A stretch of 64,000 nt of DNA from Mytilinidion resinicola (Eukaryota > Ascomycota > Dothideomycetes > Mytilinidiales > Mytilinidiaceae). Every line of letters starts with the position of its first letter. Within the stretch, counting starts at the first letter, position 1. Of the stretch, positions 59,046 to 64,000 are shown in pieces. Where the stretch lies: positions 1,393,609 to 1,457,608 of the forward strand of contig NW_022985440.1 in assembly GCF_010093595.1 (NCBI RefSeq), given 5' to 3'. The position numbers were made by a program, and so were the translations under genes. The notes beneath the pieces were generated by a model. That model saw nothing but the letters and a program-made list of their open reading frames with translations. It had not been told where the DNA came from and made no database searches.

Positions 59046-59794
59046 ATGCCAGCCGCTTCAGCTAACAGCGGCAAACCCTCACGTGTGAGGCGGAGGAAGA
59101 AACGGACAGAAGGTAAATCTCATCCTGAATAGAAGACTTTTTCACTTCCTCAACCCTTTTCATATCGACTCCAAGTACCAAGCTCAAGCTGAACAGTTTC
59201 CTCGTCTGAATCCTCCTCGTCGTCAGATTCGGAGAGTAGTAGTGAGTCAGAGAAAGATGTGAAGGCTGCCAAGGTATGTCTTTGCACCTTAAAAGATGGC
59301 GGGAGTGGGTTTTCCGGTTCTAACGTGGCGGAAGGCTCAGCCGACGAAGGACGTTAAGAAGAAGAACCCGCGAAAAATACAGAAGAGGGAGTCGCCCGAA
59401 TCTTCAAAGGACTCTGAAGACTCAGAGGAAGTCGATGATGCTGTATTTGCCCCTTCTTTTACGGCTGTTCTGTACAAACAAGATTCTGTTACATCCCATT
59501 TCTACCCGTAAATTCTTCAATCCACCAGCATCCCAGACATACCATTTCTTTCCCAATTCTGTATCATCCTAACACCTCCCGCAGCCGCCACCACAGCCCC
59601 AAGAACCAAGCGAAGATTTCAAATCCTTCTACCTCCGCAGAGTGACCACCGAGCTCGCGGATGACCTCGACAAAGTGCGTCAGGCCAGCGATTTCCAAGA
59701 CCGGAGCTTGCCTATGCTTGTGCATGCCCTGCAGCAGGGTGAGAGTATCTTCTCGAAGGAGGAGAAGGCGAGGATTCTGGCTGGGAAGAAGTAG
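59046..59794 (+). CDS. RSA3: Ribosome assembly protein 3 (Rsa3)
   Basis: Four short exons (59046-59112, 59197-59273, 59335-59442, 59585-59794) give 153 aa. The N-terminus is basic, followed by Ser/Glu-rich acidic stretches typical of nucleolar proteins. The last exon carries the Rsa3 domain: Phe-Tyr-Leu-Arg-Arg-Val-Thr-Thr-Glu-Leu-Ala-Asp-Asp-Leu-Asp, Arg-Ser-Leu-Pro-Met-Leu-Val-His-Ala-Leu-Gln-Gln-Gly and Ser-Ile-Phe. Rsa3 acts in early 60S ribosomal subunit assembly in the nucleolus. The third donor is weak (GTATTT at 59443) and was chosen because it keeps phase 0 with the last exon. GTTACA further down (59487) would also keep phase, so the end of exon 3 is uncertain; the domain itself is not affected. 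Confidence 0.85.
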
Positions 59795-59890
59795 GCAGTG
59801 TGGTTTTGGGTTTATTGGAGATTTGGTATCATTAGGGCTTCTGTCGGAGTTAATAGGCTGATTTTGCATCTGAAGCAGGGCCTTGAGGAG

Positions 59891-60330
59891 TTGACATTAA
59901 GATCTTGCGCTGAGCAGTACGTCTAGAGGTCCGTCAAAAAGTTTAGCCCCGCTCAAAATCATTCTATGAAGCGTCTAGTTTCGAGTGTGGTGCAATAGGA
60001 TGTCAAAAACGATATAGGCACCTTGTAGTCTGATTTAGCTCGTTCAACGCTTGACATTAAAAGTATTTTTGAGTGATATCTGCTGAGGTCCATCAGGGGC
60101 GCATCAAGTACTCAAAAACTTCATACGCAGACGGCTAATCTAGAGCTTAGTGCAAGAGAGTGGTAACCAAAGATACAAAGTACCCAAGGTCCGATTCAGC
60201 TCGTTAAAGCCGTTGCATCTAAAGCTCGATCTCAGTAGTACCTGCAGAGGTCCGTCAAGCTACCAATCACGTATTCAAAGACATGATTCGAGGCGTGTGA
60301 TTTGAGATCTCGTAGAAAATTGGGTTGAAA
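59891..60330. repeat. Three diverged copies of a ~160-bp tandem repeat
   Basis: Copies begin TTGACATTAA at 59891, TTGACATTAA at 60051 and TTGCATCTAA at 60213, a spacing of 160 and 162 bp. Each copy then has GAGGTCC(G/A)TCA about 35-40 bp in. Copies 1 and 2 also share a CTAGTTTCGAG/CTAATCTAGAG region and a GATTTAGCTCGTT/GATTCAGCTCGTT block just before the next copy starts. Identity is moderate, so the array is old. It lies between RSA3 and the truncated end of the minus-strand SKI3 piece, about 150 bp from the inferred inversion breakpoint. The remaining flank (59795-59890, 60331-60483) shows no gene. Confidence 0.7.
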
Positions 60331-60483
60331 ATAGTATCGCTTCTGGTCCACAATGTTAGAGCTACGAAACGCCGTGTGCTGAGCCAAAACGTGCAACTAT
60401 TATGCATGAATATCGTAACGTCGTCACGGTCGTTCAGAACGATAAAATCACCTCAGGGGAGCCTCAACTGGTTCTCAGAGCCC

Positions 60484-61435
60484 TCAACCATCCTTCCATT
60501 CAAACTCGATTCGCCATGCCAACAAGAACGGATGCTTGATGATGACCATGTCATGCGCTAGTTTCATGACCTGCTCCCTTTTGTCCTTCTTCTCCTGCAT
60601 GGGCAACACGACAAGCAGGTCATAAGCACGTTGGAGTAGCTTCTCTTCATACCCCCTCCTCGTCTCATCATCATTCGTCCAGTCGATGATGTTCTGGTAT
60701 AACGCCTCTAACTCGCTCTTCTGGTAGACCTCCCGCCTCGTCTCTGAGGTCACCTCTGCGATCCTCGCCCCGAGCCGTGTCTTGCGCTCGCCAATCAGCC
60801 GGTTTATTAGCTCCGATTCCGACGTCTCCGTGATCTCAGCCAGGCGCGTGTATGTGAGGGACGGGTGCGGCAGGCGGCCTTCGAGGAACGAATAGACGGG
60901 GCTGGTGGGAAGCTGCGTCGCAAGCGCTTTGGCGTATTGGGCCTTGGTGCCGTGCTTACAGGCGAAGTCGACGAGCTTGTCGATGCTACTCTGGGCACGG
61001 TGTGCGTCTTCTCTGCAACCTGTTAGATCTTTTCTCGGCTACAGTCTACACTGTGGGCCATGCACGTACGCAGCGGCGTAGATCTCAGCCAGGCGAAGCC
61101 CCACGGGTATGTATTCGTCCACTCCAGCGGGACCCTGGCTCTCTAACACGCCCTCCAATCCCCTCCATGCTTGAAGGTCGTCGGGTTTGATCTGTGTCGC
61201 GGTCTCGTAGGCTTTTGCGGCTTCTTGCGTTTTGCCAGACTTGTCGAGAGCACGGCCTAGGAACAGCTTCCTGAGTTGCTGTTAGATCTAGATGGTCAGG
61301 TGGAACTAGTCGAGCTTACGCGAAGTAGTTCTGCGCGTCCAGATTGAGGACCTTGTTGGCTTGGGATATAGCCTCGGGGTAGTTTCCGGCGTCCAGGGCA
61401 GCCTTCGCGGCTTTGAGGCCGGCTTTGGTGGCCAT
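60484..61435 (-). CDS. SKI3: Ski3 N-terminal TPR part (detached by inversion)
   Basis: Three minus-strand exons (61435-61320, 61270-61070, 61012-60484; introns 49 and 57 nt) give 281 aa. The sequence is the N-terminal TPR array of Ski3 (human TTC37): Leu-Lys-Ala-Ala-Lys-Ala-Ala-Leu-Asp, Asn-Tyr-Phe-Ala-Lys-Leu-Phe-Leu-Gly-Arg-Ala-Leu-Asp-Lys, and Ala-Trp-Arg-Gly-Leu. The later part has Gly-Arg-Leu-Pro-His-Pro-Ser and Glu-Glu-Lys-Leu-Leu-Gln-Arg-Ala-Tyr-Asp. It ends Glu-Phe-Glu-Trp-Lys-Asp-Gly-stop, where normal Ski3 (about 1,400 aa) simply continues. The continuation lies on the other strand from 61781. Ski3 scaffolds the cytoplasmic Ski complex feeding RNA to the exosome. Frame and splice sites are intact, so the fragment could still be made. 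Confidence 0.88.
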
Positions 61436-61780
61436 GGTGGGGGTTTTCTGGCAATTAGAATGAATCACCGTTTGGGACGTACGGGAGTGAGAGGGTAGGG
61501 CATCTTTACTAGTGAACGAGATAGCTAGAAGCTATAGGCATTAACGACTCATGCGTAGCAAGTGTTAATAGTGAGACGATGGAATGTGAAAGCTCGAAAT
61601 GATTGATGTCAAGGGCGTCGATCTGCCGCTAGCACGAACGAGGTCAAGCGACTTTTCAGCCCTACGTCAAACACCACAACACCCTTCCCTTCGACGCCGC
61701 TTGTGGAATTCTTCTGGCAACACAATCACCTACTCTTTCTCCCTGTCCATGGAAGTACCAGGTAATCATACGCCTTCAGA
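61436..61780. promoter_or_regulatory. Interval between divergent SKI3 halves
   Basis: 345 bp separating the two outward-facing SKI3 pieces. It should contain the original SKI3 promoter (still attached to the N-terminal piece) and, near its right end, whatever now drives the C-terminal piece. No core promoter motif stands out. Confidence 0.5.
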
Positions 61781-64000
61781 ATGACAGATCAAATAGGCCT
61801 CGGCCTAGACGGTGCACAAGATCTTCAAGACTTTGATATTGGCGTCGTCCGCGAATTCATCACTTTCTTCCCTGACAATGGACTTTCCAAGGTCCTGAAG
61901 GGCTATCTGAGTAGCGGCGCCTCTCAATTTCCTCTGAGAGCTACTAGTGCTACTGCAGAAGGAGGTGTCAGCCTCGAGAACGACGAGGAAAACGAGGAGG
62001 ATGTTCCCCTCACTTCGGAAGATTGTTTGGTGCTCATGACGGTTAGTCTGACGCTTTTTCAGAGCGGAACTTCGACTGATGAATTCTAAGGATGGCGTGG
62101 ACGAAGCCAAAGACTCAGTTCTGGCTCACCGTTTGATGAGCGAGTACTATCTGTTCTTGGAAGAGTATGAAAGCGCCGTCGAGACTACCCGTAGGGGACT
62201 GAAACTTGTTGCAATCGAAACCAAGAAGTCGGGCCTCAAATTCCAGAAGATTCTAGATGCGTTCAATAGCACCCTCGCGACAGCATTAATTCACCACCAG
62301 GCCCCAAAAAACCATCCAGAGGCGAGAGATATATTCGAAGAGATCCTTCGTCGAAAGCCACAGTTCACTCCTGCTCTTATAGGACTTGGTCTGATCTTAG
62401 AAGAGGAAGAAGAGTATGCCGAAGCAGTTACGTTTCTTGATAAGGCCTTTGAGAATGACCCGGGCAATGTACGTATCGGTGCGGAAGCGGCTTGGTGTCG
62501 AGCTCTCAACGGAGACTATACTACTGGTCTGAGTGAACTCGAAGAGTTCCTTGAGTATCCCCAGATGGATTTGAAGCTGCCTCGCGCTAGAGAACTCCGA
62601 GCGCAGACATTGTATCGAATCGGAATCTGCCTTTGGGAACTAGACTCTTCTGCCTCTGCTCGCAAGGATCGACAAGGATCATACGCGAGATTTCTTGCCT
62701 CCATAAAGGCCAATCCCAATTTTGCACCTCCATATACCAGTCTCGGAATCTTCTACGAGGACTACAAAAAGGACCGAAAGAGGGCTCGGCAATGTTTCCA
62801 AAAGGCCTTCGAACTCTCCTCTTATGAATTAATCGCAGCCGAACGACTTGCCCGGTCGTTTGCAGATCAAGGAGAGTGGGACATTGTCGAGGTTATTGCG
62901 CAACGGGTGGTCGGCTCTGGAAAAGTTAGGCCGGCGCCTGGTTCTAAGAAGAAGGGCGTGAGTTGGCCGTTTTCTGCTTTGGGTGTTGTTCAGATGAACA
63001 AACAAGAGTACCAGAAAAGCATCATCTCGTTCTTGTCAGCCCTCCGAATCAGTCCAGATGATTACCACTCTTATGTTGGACTAGGAGAGAGCTATCACAA
63101 CTCCGGTCGCTATAACTCAGCTTCGCGAACGTTCAACTATGCGGAAAATCCCACAGATGGAGTTGAGATGAAGAAGTCCGGCGAGAGTTGGTTTACCAAG
63201 TACATGCTAGCGAACGTTCATCGTGAACTGGGAGAGTTTGACGACGCCATTCGAGGGTACGATTTAGTGCTGAAAGAACGACCTAAAGAATTTGGAGTTT
63301 GTATTGCGCTACTTCAGACTTTGGTAGAAAGCGCTTGGAGGAATATTGAGACTGGCTTCTTTGGGGCAGCCGCCGATAGCGCCCTACGAGCAATCGGCGT
63401 CGCTATATCTGTGTCCGAATACAAGCCACAAGCCTTCAACTTATGGAAAGCCGTTGGAGATGCTTCAGCTATATTTTCCTGGGTTCAAGAGCGGCTAAGC
63501 GATATACCTTTGCGGAAGATAGAGAGCCTGCTGAAGGTTGATATCGACAGCAGCATTTATGACCTATTCCATGAGACTGATGGCATTGGATCCGGCCAGC
63601 TTGGTCTCTTGTCTGCAGACGACCAAACAAGCCCTGTTCTCGCTCGATCCCTGCATGCATCAATTCTTTCTCAGAAGCGAGCTATACATAGCTGTGCAAA
63701 CGACATACATGCACAAGCAGTGGCCTGGTATAACCTGGGATGGACGGAACATCGCGCTCATGTTTGCCTCGAACAAAACCAGGATTCTTCTCAAGGAAAG
63801 GCAGGCACCACAATGCTCAGAGCAGCCATGAAATGTTTCAAGCGCGCTATTGAACTTGAGGCAGGAAATTCCGAATTTTGGAACGCTCTTGGTGTCATCA
63901 CGACGCCATTGAATCCCAAAGTAGCTCAGCACTCCTTCGTCCGCAGCCTCCATCTAAACGAGCGCAGCGTGCGCGCATGGACGAACCTAGGGACCCTTTA
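61781..64000 (+). CDS. SKI3: Ski3 central TPR part, lacking the N-terminus; incomplete at right edge
   Basis: The ATG at 61781 starts exon 1 (61781-62041), joined over a 49-nt intron (GTTAGT...TTCTAAG) to an exon from 62091 that stays open to the window end. About ten non-family residues are followed by Leu-Gln-Asp-Phe-Asp-Ile-Gly-Val-Val-Arg-Glu-Phe-Ile, Leu-Ser-Lys-Val-Leu-Lys-Gly-Tyr and, across the splice, His-Arg-Leu-Met-Ser-Glu-Tyr-Tyr. TPR motifs continue (Pro-Ala-Leu-Ile-Gly-Leu-Gly-Leu-Ile-Leu-Glu-Glu; Ala-Arg-Gln-Cys-Phe-Gln-Lys-Ala-Phe-Glu-Leu; Glu-Phe-Trp-Asn-Ala-Leu-Gly-Val). It begins precisely where the minus-strand SKI3 piece ends. About 723 codons are visible without stop or frameshift, so the reading frame is under constraint or was broken recently. 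Confidence 0.9.

Follow-up and report, generated by a model that had tools for sequence, protein, structure and literature searches.

Ski3 is encoded in two pieces, by divergently oriented genes in Mytilinidion resinicola and by separate genes in related Dothideomycetes

Gene structure of the SKI3 locus

In Mytilinidion resinicola SKI3, the gene for Ski3, the large scaffold of an RNA-destroying machine, is present as two back-to-back genes, here called SKI3-N and SKI3-C. They were read in a stretch of 64,000 nucleotides (the window; positions 1393609-1457608 of its contig) from a genome of 47.1 Mb in 44 contigs, and the locus is situated inside a contig of 2.37 Mb. SKI3-N lies on the minus strand and comprises exon 1 at 61320..61435, with the ATG at 61435, exon 2 at 61070..61270 and exon 3 at 60484..61012, separated by introns of 49 and 57 nt. 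Exon 3 encodes the end of the N half, includes the domain TPR_22 (PF18833) and closes with Glu-Trp-Lys-Asp-Gly-stop (EWKDG-stop). The product has 281 aa, which confirms a preliminary description of this DNA, in which minus-strand positions 61435-60484 were assigned to the first ~280 residues of Ski3 with the same five residues at the end. SKI3-C lies on the plus strand and comprises exon 1 at 61781..62041 and exon 2 at 62091..64000, separated by an intron of 49 nt; exon 2 runs past the edge of the window to a stop at window-equivalent position 65258, and the product has 1142 aa. Exon 1 of SKI3-C begins with a new start peptide (about MTDQIGLGL), continues with Asp-Gly-Ala-Gln-Asp, and holds the stub of the N arm. 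The starts and splice sites of both genes are predicted, as read from the DNA sequence.

The two ATGs stand head to head, 345 bp apart, and the intergenic stretch between them (61436..61780) is the proposed old SKI3 promoter, which may now act in both directions. The inner breakpoint region (60484..60492) is the place where the N-coding sequence stops and where, by alignment with relatives, unsplit Ski3 continues. Together the two products amount to 1423 residues, and the unsplit Ski3 proteins of relatives mostly have 1390-1440.

The GC content at third codon positions is 0.72 in SKI3-N versus 0.51 in SKI3-C. Three diverged tandem copies of a unit of ~160 bp (mean column identity 73%) occupy positions 59850-60335, just left of the SKI3-N stop; the unit yielded no other match in the genome and was not reported by TRF. 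The neighbours of SKI3 are ribosome-related, namely Rsa3 on the left (59573-59791) and, after SKI3-C, a ribosomal L16p/L10e gene on the right.

Identity of the two products and comparison with single-chain Ski3

Conservation of the Ski complex extends from yeast to humans. The part of SKI3-C within the window (637 aa) matches yeast Ski3 in PDB with an E-value of 6.6e-72 (4buj chain B) and has the TPR solenoid of the C arm. The last exon of SKI3-N matches yeast Ski3 with an E-value of 2.5e-10, and the SKI3-N protein carries TPR_22 with 102.7 bits, the sole PF18833 match in the genome. The exon reading, the yeast Ski3 matches and TPR_22 thus bear out the earlier claim that SKI3 is split into two divergent genes, and the locus does not encode a single Ski3 polypeptide of ~1400 residues. 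A second complete SKI3 elsewhere, envisaged in the preliminary description, was also looked for: with 637 aa of C, 176 aa of N and TPR_22 as queries, the 47.1-Mb genome yielded neither a second or full-length SKI3 nor a long remnant of either missing half, although short remnants could be missed because the queries were confined to these parts. A Ski2_N (PF17911) gene is present at positions 115890-116324 of the contig that carries SKI3, and an HBS1_N gene is present in the genome.

The two products resemble Ski3/TTC37 (SKIC3), the single-chain scaffold of Ski2-Ski3-Ski8, in their full-length sequence, the TPR_22 of the N arm, the TPR solenoid of the C arm and a total of ~1420 aa. They differ from it in that two genes each supply one polypeptide in place of a single chain, and the cut falls within the N arm, ~45 residues short of the acidic linker. 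SKI3-C keeps the last ~45 residues of the N arm, the acidic linker and the entire C-arm solenoid. Ski3 is given as one chain in the published descriptions consulted. In the human structures of PMC8860381, Ski2 and Ski8 are bound by the C arm of Ski3, and the N arm (TPR 1-8), which is flexible, was left unmodelled. A cut inside the N arm leaves the C arm, the part responsible for assembly, whole, which may be why the split was tolerated.

Distribution in related genomes

Separate N and C proteins on contigs of equal size were found in 42 other genomes by sequence searches with each half, these pairs having been chosen for N and C contigs of matching size. Both pieces have thus been kept as proteins, as the preliminary description had supposed. 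Left out of the 42 pairs were Coniothyrium glycines, a second Stemphylium pair, five further equal-contig pairs, N entries lacking a C partner among the matches listed, and species with N and C cluster entries on different contigs (e.g., Paraphaeosphaeria minitans, Boeremia exigua, Alternaria rosae and A. burnsii). In two further N/C pairs the contig has just 10.2 and 10.5 kb, and consecutive locus tags for N and C were observed in Plenodomus lingam, P. biglobosus, Alternaria dauci, A. rosae and A. incomplexa. The opposite orientation of the two genes was read in M. resinicola alone, linkage in the relatives being judged from contig sizes and locus tags. One scan of viral contigs and one of genome contigs, each with a single C protein, yielded no DNA of a fungal relative. 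Regarding the sizes of the products, N has 281-288 aa in 39 of the 42 relatives (301, 290 and 261 in the other three), and C has 1138-1148 aa in all 42. Among the matches listed, Lophium mytilinum is the nearest named relative, with 94% for N and for C alike, its C half being the entry with a contig of equal length.

The C search scored the 7999 best candidates, and the best 120 of its 1511 matches were used, together with the best 120 of 174 matches from the N search. Split Ski3 covers Mytilinidiales, Gloniales and Pleosporales; the unsplit form was observed in Botryosphaeriales, Venturiales, Patellariales and others. The orders of the named species were looked up in some cases and are otherwise those to which we take the species to belong. 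TPR_22 was found in 20 of the best 120 of 1511 C matches, all 20 being unsplit forms, whole or as fragments; 12 of the carriers are named, namely Macrophomina, Neofusicoccum, Aplosporella, Diplodia, Saccharata, two Phyllosticta, Patellaria, Coniosporium, Pseudovirgaria, Aureobasidium and Elasticomyces. The best 120 of 359 longer proteins found with the N region, among which the highest identity was 66%, include none whose name we would presume to belong to Pleosporales, Mytilinidiales or Gloniales. Ski3 is unsplit in Venturia and Aulographum, whose orders NCBI also places in Pleosporomycetidae. Hysteriales are absent by name among the matches listed (best 120 of 1511, of 174 and of 359); according to PMC7325674, this order and Pleosporales are sister groups and Mytilinidiales are basal to the pair.

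A fused gene model in Neofusicoccum (Ldb17 + Ski3) suggests that Ldb17/SPIN90 lies directly upstream of SKI3 in that genus; in M. resinicola Ldb17 is located on the same contig as SKI3, ~1 Mb off (444553-444966).

Position of the cut and phylogeny

The 43 N/C pairs (the 42 relatives and the window) were aligned with 34 hand-picked unsplit Ski3 proteins. In every one of the 43 N proteins the family sequence is kept up to one shared Trp (W282 of Macrophomina, ~291 of yeast in 5mc6), after which a short tail closes the protein, and the C proteins pick up the family sequence no more than about five residues from the cut, as judged by eye; the C starts of Paraphoma, Lentithecium and Massarina were misplaced by the aligner, and that of Massarina has diverged. 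The alignment agrees with the earlier statement that the plus-strand gene from 61781 takes up the family sequence at Asp-Gly-Ala-Gln-Asp. The overlap between N and C is at most about three residues (in the window KDG on N and DGA on C). Among the best 120 N proteins, 113 end no more than 15 residues from the Trp, three are fragments continuing into C, and four are without the motif. The final Asp-Gly of N is present in the window and in Lophium, with Asn-Gly in Lepidopterella, and is not found in the other N tails listed. A new N tail such as RSGLEVEAY, mainly in Pleosporales, is without an aligned counterpart in unsplit Ski3; a VExY/H/F terminus was observed in 65 of the best 120 N proteins. 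A new C start, MASHAD..., is common to most Pleosporales in the alignment.

The split set forms one clade, with a local support of 0.987 in the N tree and 1.0 in the C tree (FastTree, split versus unsplit bipartition). These comparisons indicate that the fission is old, has been kept and is common to a large clade; the possibility of a local event, which the preliminary description had left, was not borne out, the same cut being present in 42 other genomes that belong to one clade. Published dates place the ancestor of the Dothideomycetes at more than 280 million years and the radiation of the Pleosporales at 133-97 million years (PMC3516569), so that the fission would be older than this radiation if the event was single.

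Constraint on each half

Identity within the split group relative to the unsplit group was 1.31 for the last 52 residues of N and 1.36 for the first 45 residues of C, with 1.02-1.52 in other regions; relative to unsplit Ski3, both edges are thus conserved like the interior (difference from the rest, p 0.08 and 0.21). The first 45 residues of C are the N-arm stub, with two likely helices as judged by eye from the sequence. If N were lost or freed, this stub would lose its neighbour, and yet it stays constrained, which suggests that the halves probably rejoin. Branch lengths of N and C in the split clade correlate with a rho of 0.79-0.82, compared with 0.80 for two parts of C; in unsplit species the corresponding values are 0.83 and 0.85. 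Such correlation is largely driven by shared time.

Several results would instead fit a course in which the same fission was followed by a separation, N now working apart from the Ski complex. The N/C pairwise rate ratio is 1.08 in split versus 0.94 in unsplit species, and to outgroups 1.03 versus 0.92, indicating that N evolves somewhat faster relative to C; the gain in conservation was also smaller for columns of N than for the others (p 0.04). Residues 150-200, inside TPR_22, are conserved in unsplit Ski3 and have diverged in the split clade, in which the remaining positions are more alike on average (mean difference -0.05 versus +0.15), this stretch having been picked after a first look at the conservation data. 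Clade-diagnostic changes are mildly enriched near the cut, with 6 of 34 within 40 residues (p 0.010; 3.8% of centres are equally rich) and p-values of 0.013, 0.029 and 0.062 at 30, 50 and 60 residues. The faster evolution of N, the smaller gain of its columns and the lower conservation of residues 150-200 would be consistent with an N arm that has changed its job. Against this separation stand the conservation of the C stub and the N end, the branch lengths of N, which track those of C, and the continued linkage of the two genes, and we consider it rather unlikely. On most of the conservation results, though with some of them opposed, N and C together probably replace Ski3 as a two-piece subunit.

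Origin of the split

We regard it as likely that an ancestral inversion carrying the promoter split SKI3, and that the halves, kept as separate genes, most likely reassemble as a two-piece Ski3. The event would date to an ancestor shared by Mytilinidiales, Gloniales and Pleosporales, in which a small inversion would have turned round the SKI3 promoter and the exons that encode the first ~282 residues, bringing the old promoter to lie between the halves, which would then stand head to head. From this position the promoter would drive N on one strand and bidirectionally supply a start to the orphaned C on the other, and the N protein, which represents most of the Ski3 N-terminal arm, would dock on the stub of C. 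In this genome the halves are adjacent, lie on opposite strands and abut in the ancestral protein, as a fission made by inversion would leave them; a promoter flipped along with the first exons would account for the head-to-head arrangement, for halves that abut and for the absence of remnants alike. Inversions are the main type of rearrangement in Dothideomycetes according to PMC3516569. The outer breakpoint would lie between 61436 and about 61810, which corresponds to a flipped block of about 0.95-1.33 kb in today's coordinates.

The geometry of the locus thus fits the inversion put forward in the preliminary description, but its breakpoints cannot be read from the GAYGGT words that had been taken to mark both edges. 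This word occurs 65 times in the window (both strands), is unconserved in relatives, most of whose listed N tails lack the final Asp-Gly, and was rejected as a breakpoint mark because it looks like chance; the plus-strand word, GACGGT, is at 61808-61813 and not at 61812-61817 as earlier noted. A repeat listing that covered 25 of 27 inverted pairs and 20 of 25 direct families gave nothing longer at the block edges than pairs of 10-17 nt, one 12-nt pair having its arms at 61814-61825 and 59899-59910; from their length, these pairs were taken as chance. Since the fission is common to a large clade, the original breakpoint bases have probably long been overwritten.

Linked divergent genes would likewise be expected if SKI3 had been duplicated in inverted tandem, followed by loss of the 3' part from one copy and of the 5' part from the other. 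Monkey-king genes arose by duplication. Such duplication and loss is a known type of route to split genes (monkey-king genes, PMC2557144), and the halves in the window could share up to three residues. The halves nevertheless meet to within a few residues in each of the 43 pairs, and two copies that each lost a part would scarcely be expected to end at one and the same residue; there is no long overlap, and no remnants were found with the exons searched. We therefore judge this origin unlikely. Joining of the two transcripts into a full-length Ski3 mRNA by trans-splicing would also suit abutting halves, and a weak GT donor after GATG in N and a CTAG acceptor before ACGGT in C can be seen by eye; the new C start shared by most Pleosporales aligned, together with the recurrent VExY/H/F tail of N, suggests separate translation of the two and makes trans-splicing very improbable. 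An assembly or annotation artefact, conceivable for a finding that came from a single assembly, has a negligible probability, misassembly being excluded by the 42 other pairs with the same cut and by the position of the one locus inside a 2.37-Mb contig.

Significance of the SKI3 fission

With gene fission by rearrangement or by duplication and degeneration (monkey-king genes and the fungal survey PMC2557144) the SKI3 locus shares the outcome of two present genes from one ancestral gene. It differs from known fissions in that the proposed flip would carry the promoter and leave both halves promoted, and in being kept in at least three orders. The locus also resembles divergent (bidirectional) gene pairs, with 345 bp between ATGs on opposite strands, and is unlike them in that SKI3-N and SKI3-C are halves of one former gene. 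No paper on a Ski3 split was found in a literature search, most subscription journals being outside its reach.

An obstacle to gene fission is that one product requires a new promoter, as stated in PMC2557144; an old promoter placed between the halves would remove it. The SKI3 locus would thereby provide a concrete answer to how a fission can avoid leaving one half unpromoted. Tentatively, and with less confidence than in the inversion itself, a wider reading is possible, in which the promoter-carrying inversion made an obligate two-gene, two-chain Ski3 that was fixed before the Pleosporales radiation, the free N arm being separately regulated and able to tune the coupling of Ski to exosome or ribosome, by a route that may be general in inversion-rich fungi. 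A clade in which the N arm is a protein of its own offers a natural experiment on the role of this arm and on the need for its tethering. If the proposed origin is true, flipping a promoter together with the first exons may let genes split without losing expression in inversion-rich fungi.
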